From NCBI GenBank assembly GCA_902789435.1, contig CADAOA010000004.1, positions 1-54,185 of the forward strand: DNA of 54,185 bases, written 5' to 3'. Position numbers and translations under genes: made by a program. How positions within the stretch are numbered: position 1 is the first letter of the stretch; the number at the start of each line of letters is the position of its first letter. Under the pieces are notes generated by a model. The model was not told the DNA's origin and searched no databases. It saw nothing but the letters and a program-made list of their open reading frames with translations. Positions 16,916 to 19,234 of the stretch are shown here, in pieces. The DNA comes from an uncultured Bacteroidia bacterium. Its GTDB lineage: Bacteria; Bacteroidota; Bacteroidia; Bacteroidales; UBA932.

Positions 16916-18919
16916 ATGGGCATAAGCAGAAAATACGATGTGATTGTAGTTGGTGCCGGTCACGCTGGATGCGAAGCCGCATTCTCGGCCGCTCGTATGG
17001 GCTGTCAGGTTCTGCTTGTGACAATGGATATGAACAAGATAGCCCAGATGTCTTGCAATCCGGCCGTGGGTGGAATAGCTAAGGGTCAGATAGTCAGAGA
17101 GATAGATGCCTTGGGTGGGGGAATGGGCTTGGTTACAGACGCTTCTACCATCCAGTTCCGGATGCTCAACAGCTCCAAAGGACCCGCTGTATGGAGTCCC
17201 AGGGCCCAGTGTGACCGCCAGTTCTTCATACTTAACTGGAGGTACCTTCTGGAACACACTCCAGGACTTCACATATGGCAGGACACAGTCACCGATCTTG
17301 TCATCGATACTTTCAAACGGAAAACAAAAGGTTATGACCATATAGTCCGCGGAGTTGTTACTGCGATGGGAGCTGAATTTTCCGCTTCCAAAGTCATTCT
17401 TACCGCAGGGACTTTTTTGAACGGCCGCCTTTTTATCGGCAGGAATTCTGCGGAAGGCGGAAGGATCGGCGAACCACCGTCTTTGAGCCTTACGGAAAAG
17501 CTGGCCCTCTTCGGAATAGAATCCGGCAGGATGAAAACCGGAACACCTCCAAGGATTGACATTAAATCCATCGATACCTCCAGGCTTGAAATCCAACCCG
17601 GAGACGAAAATCCCGGGCGCTTCTCTTTCCTGAATGTTCCTTCTTCTGTGCAGACCAACATCGCACAAAGATGCTGCTATCTTGTCCACACAAACAATAA
17701 GGTTCATTCTATCCTGAAAAGAGGTTTCAAAGACTCGCCTCTTTTCTCCGGAAAGATAACCGGACTCGGACCGAGATACTGCCCGAGCATCGAGGATAAG
17801 CTTCGCACATTTGCCGATAAAGACCAGCACCTTCTTTTCCTGGAGCCGGAAGGCTGGAATACCAACGAATATTATTTGCAGGGATTCTCTTCTTCTCTGC
17901 CGATGGATATACAGATAGAGGCCGTGCGTCATATAGAGGGTTTGGAAACGGCGGAAATATTCCGTCCGGCTTACGCCGTGGAATACGATTATTTTCCACC
18001 AACCCAGCTAAGCCATACTTTGGAATCCAAGCGTGTTTCTGGTCTTTATTTTGCCGGACAGGTCAACGGAACCACCGGTTACGAAGAAGCAGCCGCCCAG
18101 GGTTTGATGGCCGGTATAAATGCAAGCCTTTCCATCCAAAAACGCCAACCTCTGATTTTTGCCCGCAACCAGTCTTACATAGGCGTTTTGATTGATGATC
18201 TTGTCACGAAAGGAGTAGATGAACCTTACCGTATGTTTACCTCCAGGGCAGAGTACAGAATACTTCTCAGGCAAGATAACGCCGATTGCAGGCTGACGGA
18301 AATCGGATACAATATAGGCCTTGCTTCTAAAGACAGGCTGGAGCTGATGAAAGATAAATATTCCAGCATCGGCAATATCGTTTCCATTCTGGATGAAGAC
18401 ACGATCTCCCCTAAAGCGTTCAATACTGCAAATACTGCTGAAAAGATTTCTGAAGGAAAAAAAGCCTCGGCGCTTCTTATGCGTCCGGATGTGGCGCTTA
18501 AGGACATAATGGGAATTGTTCCCCGTGGAACATCGATCAGAAAATCTCTTTCCGCAGTTGAGAAGAAGCATCCGGTAACTGATGTGGCTGACGGAATCAG
18601 GCTTCCGTTCCGCCCTTATGGTTTTTCTGTAGACGGAGTTTTCAAGGATACTTTAAGTTCTGAAATCCTTTCTTCCGTTGAAACATCGGTAAAATACCGC
18701 GGATATGTTCAGAGAGAACAAAGCGCTGCGGACAGGATGGCCCGCCTTGAAGCCTTGAAAATTCCTCAGGACTTTGATTATATGAAAGTTACATCTCTAT
18801 CTATGGAAGGCAGGATGAAGCTTCTCAGATACCGTCCTCAAACCATTGCACAAGCTTCCAGGATTTCAGGAGTTAGTCCTGCGGATATATCCGTACTTTT
18901 AGTCTATTTCGGGCGCTGA
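16916..18919 (+). CDS. mnmG: tRNA uridine-34 modification enzyme MnmG (GidA)
   Basis: MnmG, with MnmE, adds the carboxymethylaminomethyl group to wobble uridine of several tRNAs; it is an FAD enzyme. The FAD motif [17 protein letters not shown] is at residues about 12-28. The signatures [12 protein letters not shown] and [15 protein letters not shown] follow, and the second signature [16 protein letters not shown] is near 377-392. The C-terminal helical domain ends [19 protein letters not shown]. At 667 residues it is somewhat longer than the usual 620-630. The coding sequence contains the first of two identical parS-like 16-mers (18517-18532). mnmG/gidA is a classic origin-proximal gene in many bacteria. 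Confidence 0.97.
18517..18532. promoter_or_regulatory. parS-like 16-mer, copy 1 (inside mnmG)
   Basis: TGTTCCCCGTGGAACA. It is one base from the perfect palindrome TGTTCCACGTGGAACA and two bases from the widespread ParB site consensus TGTTTCACGTGAAACA family at its variable centre/arms. Identical to the copy at 19114-19129. Confidence 0.55.
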
Positions 18920-19113
18920 AAATTCTTCAAGCAAAAGATTTGTTAGCGCAAGTTACTTTGCGTATTAATAGGCTATTATAATAAATTACCTAAAGTTTTA
19001 CTTTATTGTATTTTTGGAGCATTATTTAACCATGTCGAAACGCCCGTTATTTTAATGCGATACTTTAAGTAAGATGTTTTAAATAACTTATAACAAGCAA
19101 AATAATCTTAAAA

Positions 19114-19129
19114 TGTTCCCCGTGGAACA
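19114..19129. promoter_or_regulatory. parS-like 16-mer, copy 2 (intergenic)
   Basis: TGTTCCCCGTGGAACA, exact repeat of 18517-18532 at 597 bp distance, here outside any coding sequence. A likely ParB-binding centromere site; function inferred. Confidence 0.6.
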
Positions 19130-19205: not shown

Positions 19206-19234
19206 AAAAATAGCCCGAAAATCGGGCTATTTTT
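19206..19234. terminator. Bidirectional rho-independent terminator
   Basis: AAAAATAGCCCGA (19206-19218) and TCGGGCTATTTTT (19222-19234) form a perfect stem with loop AAA. It serves ybeY-mnmG on one side and gcvH-threonine aldolase on the other. Confidence 0.9.

Follow-up and report, generated by a model that had tools for sequence, protein, structure and literature searches.

The two identical 16-mers that lie in and just after the mnmG gene of this Bacteroidales genome are very probably chromosomal parS sites, with the C at position 7 of each being a tolerated change in one arm. This reading draws on their sequence, location and conservation, on the skew minimum in relatives and on the presence of parA and parB in the genome. 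The window, meaning the whole 54,185-nt stretch of DNA that was analysed, holds the following features.

16916-18919, + strand: mnmG (gidA), host gene of site A (TIGR00136, 793.5 bits, cut-off 524.85)
18517-18532: putative parS site A, TGTTCCCCGTGGAACA, inside mnmG, coding, in the V-P-R-G-T codons
19114-19129: putative parS site B, a 16-mer identical to site A (TGTTCCCCGTGGAACA), same strand, intergenic, between mnmG and the convergent gene

The host gene encodes the enzyme of tRNA uridine-5-carboxymethylaminomethyl(34) synthesis. Past site B, at 19206-19234, an AT-flanked inverted repeat (agcccg...cgggct) was spotted by eye; it was not returned by the terminator search, and it looks like a terminator common to both convergent genes.

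The two 16-mers as candidate parS sites

The coordinates and identity of the two copies, 597 bp apart, were as given in the preliminary description, as was the C at position 7 of both. Its remark that the window holds no further copy is confirmed even when mismatches are allowed: apart from sites A and B nothing lies within 3 mismatches of TGTTCCCCGTGGAACA, the four matches at this level being the two sites read on both strands, against a shuffle mean of 0.35. The same description took two exact 16-mers to be very unlikely by chance, which is wrong as worded. Chance alone would give 0.35 same-strand pairs in 54 kb, and two other unrelated exact 16-mer repeats are present in the window (5364/47149 and 35619/51791), so the repeat alone is little proof. 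The case for parS is carried instead by proximity, by the match to parS and by conservation. The 0.35 expected pairs are what speaks for a chance repeat, but the expectation in the window falls to 0.009 for an identical pair no more than 700 bp apart, and given also the parS match and the conservation in relatives this explanation is hardly conceivable.

The genome (G000) is available as a 90% complete draft of 1,973,497 bases (1.97 Mb) in 95 contigs, and in this draft sites A and B are the only matches to TGTTCCCCGTGGAACA at up to 2 mismatches. Chromosomal parS of the ParABS system has the consensus TGTTNCACGTGAAACA. A search of the draft with the common parS form TGTTYCACGTGRAACA, allowing up to 2 mismatches, returned sites A and B, with 1 mismatch each, and 2 weak 2-mismatch matches, while its reversed control gave 3 matches. 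Both copies are thus 16-bp near-palindromes 1 mismatch from TGTTYCACGTGRAACA, and there are few of them, clustered, with their position relative to the skew read in relatives. The CACGTG core is not intact in both arms and reads CCCGTG in both copies. An intact core is usual for parS and does not define it, because T. thermophilus parSc is reported without such a core in the available part of its description (PMC4409726). The preliminary description had named scattered copies, or a canonical parS set elsewhere, as what would count against parS. The genome scan at up to 2 mismatches found no scatter, and no canonical set was found in the available 90% of the genome, which supports the parS reading.

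Conservation and selection on the DNA

Within the genus, 35 of 39 genomes match TGTTCCNCGNGGAACA with at most 1 mismatch, including all 12 of the 12 good-quality genomes. The reversed control also gives scattered matches at this level, and therefore the positions of the matches were checked. The four genomes outside this count (G014, G018, G025 and G029) have poorer sites in the same places. With 38 usable mnmG ends, a downstream limit of 800 bases and up to 2 mismatches tolerated outside positions 7 and 10, a site lies inside the 3' part of mnmG in 31/38, downstream in 29/38 and in both places in 23/38. Rows for this recount were not selected for the presence of a site, and it leaves out two second mnmG contigs (G028b, G031b) and G008, all three of which are still included in some other genus counts. 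In G008 mnmG is cut, and a site elsewhere counted as downstream really lies in the front part of mnmG. Six genus genomes without the inside copy have a perfect palindrome 7-11 bases past the last aligned codon, and the missing site A of G023 is not a loss since a contig end cuts its mnmG.

Second, diverged mnmG copies occur in two bins (G028:C26; G031:C36 and C112) and are likely contamination. Additionally, two genomes carry a perfect TGTTCCACGTGGAACA in the first part of mnmG (G035:C79:333-348 and G008:C143:5329-5344).

The non-coding copy is conserved as well. In a 333-column intergenic alignment of the six genomes of the window's own clade, 46% of the columns are invariant, and a stretch of 16 columns with 15 or more invariant is found only at site B, whose one varying column is position 7. 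The intergenic alignment of a second clade likewise has one such stretch, at the columns expected for the site from its offset.

Beyond the genus, we took the nearest relatives found (56-73% identity), removing 6 of 80 initial loci that were the same DNA as genus genomes; on the genus side of this comparison G008 was excluded as too short. In the resulting 74 non-genus Bacteroidales mnmG loci the inside copy is present in 72/74 and a site no more than 3 kb downstream in 60/74. Six loci have a further site after mnmG: TGTTCCTCGTGGAACA at +1.7 to +1.9 kb in L148, L150, L151, L154 and L159, and TGTTCCCCGTGGAACA, the window's own form, at +1710 in L147; the core of site A is strict in these groups. 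Among 24 more distant families, represented by one genome each, 11 match TGTTCCMCGTGGAACA at up to 1 mismatch, and mnmG lies alongside the match in 10 of those 11 loci. Exact TGTTCCNCGNGGAACA occurs in 124/393 genomes of the order and its reversed control in 2 genomes; the other 269 may use other forms or places. The arrangement of mnmG with parS is widespread, and the claim does not extend to the whole order.

Site A lies in coding sequence, and the silent third codon bases at its positions 4, 7, 10, 13 and 16 allow selection on the DNA to be separated from selection on the codons. At position 7 the silent base belongs to a Pro codon. In rows with a matching codon family position 4 is T in 31/31 genus and 72/72 other rows, and position 13 is A in 31/31 and 67/69. 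One tabulation of genus and non-genus loci chose rows that retain site A, which favours conserved outer positions, and a recount was made without that choice; the rows for positions 4 and 13 were not selected for the site, and changes were counted on the MnmG tree. Position 4 changed 0 times in the genus and 0 times in the others, and position 13 changed 0 times and 1 time, compared with 9-18 changes (median 15) in the genus and 22-37 (median 31) in the others at four-fold reference positions. Together with intergenic site B these silent positions point to selection on the site as DNA and not only as codons, and in the non-genus Bacteroidales loci the parS carried in mnmG fixes silent codon bases. 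Position 16, the reverse of position 7 in its behaviour, shows 2 changes in the genus (neutral 9-18) and 19 in the others (neutral 22-37).

Position 7 itself is strict outside the genus, where it is A in 70/73 rows with 2 changes (reference 22-37). The genus rows (n=34) have A 14, T 10, C 6 and G 4 times, with 9 changes (reference 9-18). This is not fully neutral, as only 1 of 26 reference positions has as few changes, and we regard position 7 as largely freed in the genus, at a rate somewhat over half the neutral silent median and at the low end of neutral. Its partner in the palindrome, position 10, changed 3 times in the genus and 6 times in the others. At least one intact GTTYCAC arm is kept in 63/66 genus sites, and in all three genomes where a site has both arms changed the other site is a perfect palindrome. 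Changes at both 7 and 10 are found in 3 of the 66 genus sites against 7.09 expected (P 0.011), and in 3 of all 179 sites pooled against 5.53 expected (P 0.14), by a shuffling that ignores shared descent and on sites chosen by matching outer arms, which favours intact arms. A fixed orientation of the changed arm was considered as well. Departures at 7 outnumber those at 10 in the downstream site (16 vs 3 in the genus, 16 vs 4 outside), whereas in non-genus loci site A is changed mainly at position 10 (7 times, against 1 at position 7), and so no such rule is claimed.

These patterns also bear on two other explanations. The first is that the sites are decaying, with weaker selection on segregation in the genus and parS being lost. 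Sites with 2-3 mismatches in G014, G018, G025, G029 and G061, second sites with both arms changed in G006 and G007, and the missing ParB match in 2 of 39 genus genomes could all be read this way. However, the genus shows no variation at positions 4 and 13 and just two changes at position 16, ParB is found in 37 of 39 genomes that are drafts, and the sites with both arms off have perfect-palindrome partners (3/3), which makes decay quite improbable. The second is that the 16-mer acts as an RNA hairpin or terminator and not as a protein site. Its sequence allows a 6-bp stem closed by a 4-base loop, and on the minus strand a terminator-like match runs across site B. Against this, folding of the region shows no gain over shuffles (z -0.52), changes at stem pairs 6-11 and 1-16, the two of six pairs tabulated, are uncompensated, site B conserves loop bases 8 and 9 although it is non-coding, and site A is within coding sequence. 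Neither the stable hairpin nor the compensating changes of an intrinsic terminator were found in the fold test and at these two stem pairs, and we consider a role in RNA very improbable.

ParB, the proposed tolerance at position 7 and the position of the origin

One ParB, of 302 aa, scores over the cut-off in the window's own genome (G000:C77, TIGR00180, 183.2 bits), with a ParA-type gene just upstream of it. Matches to ParB were found in 37 of the 39 draft genomes of the genus, with none in G005 and G017. Residue numbers follow a Caulobacter ParB stretch that agrees with the residues named in PMC7383237. In this numbering the window's own ParB has N172, R173, Y179, K184, G201 and K204, of which R173 and G201 are of the parS type. 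G201 is present in 64/64 ParBs read, these being 35 of the 37 genus ParBs (one was truncated and one not extracted) and the best 29 from the 29 other genomes with a match among 30 searched; R173 was part of the residue search pattern and G201 was not.

In the available part of PMC7383237, parS and the Noc-binding site NBS are described as differing at the position-7 base, where Arg201 reads the C of NBS, while Gly201 of Caulobacter ParB cannot contact the base specifically and an RTKG variant is promiscuous, with several sites bound. The window's own ParB should therefore tolerate C7, given Gly201, which makes no specific base contact in the Caulobacter structure, and Lys184. Both the G201 and the RTKG observations would fit tolerance, not a specificity switch. 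The C at position 7 does raise the question of NBS, since it is the NBS base (PMC7383237). Yet NBS has it in both arms and the window's sites in one only, and NBS has A where parS has its first G (PMC7383237) while position 2 here is G as in parS. The sole ParB/Noc-type protein scores 241.3 against a Noc cut-off of 315 bits and carries the ParB residues R173 and G201, no Noc (Q173 and R201) was found in the genome, and the sites are not scattered in it. A Noc-binding site is thus a highly improbable explanation.

A further explanation, which we consider unlikely, is that the clade's ParB has shifted in specificity, perhaps by way of residue 200 or 172, and now prefers C or T at position 7 or reads them equally well, instead of only tolerating them. 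Met200 adjoins Gly201, and a site departing at 7 or 10 within 800 bp of the mnmG end occurs in 37/42 genomes with M200 and in 1/21 without; the window's own clade also has Asn172 where most others have Lys. However, M200 changed twice on the tree; supported branches yield a single independent pair, where site departure failed to follow the residue, and the table can thus be explained by descent alone. Genus members with the same ParB residues keep perfect CACGTG sites, and B. subtilis ParB likewise has Met200. PDB chain 1vz0, which we take to be T. thermophilus ParB, has Ala200 and Gln184, yet the parS of that species has C7. Since many relatives with strict sites also carry K184 and K172 in their ParBs, and Gln184 is found in the chain from a species with C7, no single residue explains the relaxation.

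Under the tolerance reading, ParB dimers would load on sites A and B, clamp and slide onto the adjoining DNA, and ParA would move the ParB-DNA complex so that newly copied origins separate. C7 would be a tolerated change in one arm, with the opposite arm holding a full half-site GTTCCAC. More tentatively, the ParB of the genus may read parS as one strict and one relaxed arm, position 7 being mostly without a role, and in some species, the present one included, only asymmetric parS was found. If true, nature would here supply a graded set of sites with A, C, G or T that ParBs of almost the same sequence recognise. The single-base parS variants of the genus, paired with near-identical ParBs, in any case offer a natural test of the tolerance of ParB to an imperfect arm.

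The position relative to the origin was assessed in relatives, as the window's own genome, in 95 contigs, is too fragmented to place the pair; the skew profile of the window has no single clean flip. In a one-contig genus genome of 2.229 Mb (G034), with the skew read from 40 segments of 20 kb each (about 36% of the sequence), the cumulative GC skew is lowest at 666-690 kb and the parS sites lie at 687,267 and 688,425. There dnaA (76 kb) and parB (202 kb) are separated by hundreds of kb from both the skew minimum and the parS sites. A 782-kb contig of G011 has its minimum at 345-370 kb and its sites at 366 kb, and G020 has a broad minimum, lowest at 324-351 kb, with its sites at 298 kb. The concentration at the skew minimum that had been proposed as a check is thus seen in G034 and G011 and only broadly in G020. 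A DnaA-box scan for an origin adjoining mnmG was set aside: the window has 7 matches where 3.84 would be expected, and not one of them comes within 4 kb of either site. In gut bacteria parS is reported to cluster at the skew flip and origins are not always with dnaA (PMC10197239, in the part available). With parS located both within and downstream of mnmG here and in related groups, the pair is suggested as an origin marker for draft genomes where dnaA is no guide.

The bacterial SMC model gave no match over its cut-off in 5/5 genus genomes (G000, G034, G011, G020 and G015), with weak partial matches only. The usual condensin loaded at parS seems to be missing in these genomes, and its absence is likewise described in two other Bacteroidetes in the available part of PMC10197239.

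Comparison with known systems

Chromosome segregation in Bacteroidota seems to be little studied. Among the matches listed in the open-licence literature we recognised no ParB-binding study in this phylum, no report of freedom at a position of one arm across a genus, and no report of parS inside mnmG in related Bacteroidales. Predicted parS sites are given for two gut Bacteroidetes in the part of PMC10197239 available. Of the exact C7 16-mer and five forms related to it, we found one of the six in print, TGTTTCCCGTGAAACA, in the accessible portions of the literature (PMC4409726, review PMC7022226).

The two sites resemble chromosomal parS in being 16-bp near-palindromes present in few copies, in clustering at the skew minimum in relatives and in going with a ParB that has R173 and G201. 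They are unlike it in that they depart at position 7 in one arm (CCCGTG), and the relative G034 is unlike it in having dnaA and parB far from parS. The departure itself is not unprecedented, because the parS of T. thermophilus carries the same C. Its parSc, TGTTTCCCGTGAAACA, has C7 in one arm, lies inside the gidB coding sequence and is bound by its own ParB in EMSA, and it thus shares with site A both the changed base and the place inside a coding gene (PMC4409726, as far as available). Unlike the pair described here it is a single site adjoining parAB, some 6 kb from oriC, and it has T and A at positions 5 and 12, unlike our sites, and comes from a different phylum (same portion of PMC4409726). 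This also limits the idea of a lineage-specific variant put forward in the preliminary description. That idea agrees with how freely position 7 varies in the genus, whereas the exact C7 is only one of the genus states, near relatives too have sites departing at 7 or 10, and C7 is found in T. thermophilus (PMC4409726).

The second comparison is with P. aeruginosa, where parS2 and parS3 are TGTTCCACGTGGAACA, a familiar parS, and parS7 is TGTTCCACGAGGAACG (PMC4368675, in part). The outer arms of these sites are as in ours, and parS7 departs in one arm at the partner position 10. Single arms GTTCCAC are bound by P. aeruginosa ParB in the part of PMC10419367 available. In the accessible part of PMC4368675 sites with a changed core bind more weakly and cannot replace the four near oriC. 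Sites departing at position 10 are weaker and accessory in P. aeruginosa, whereas here departing sites are the only ones found in the genome.
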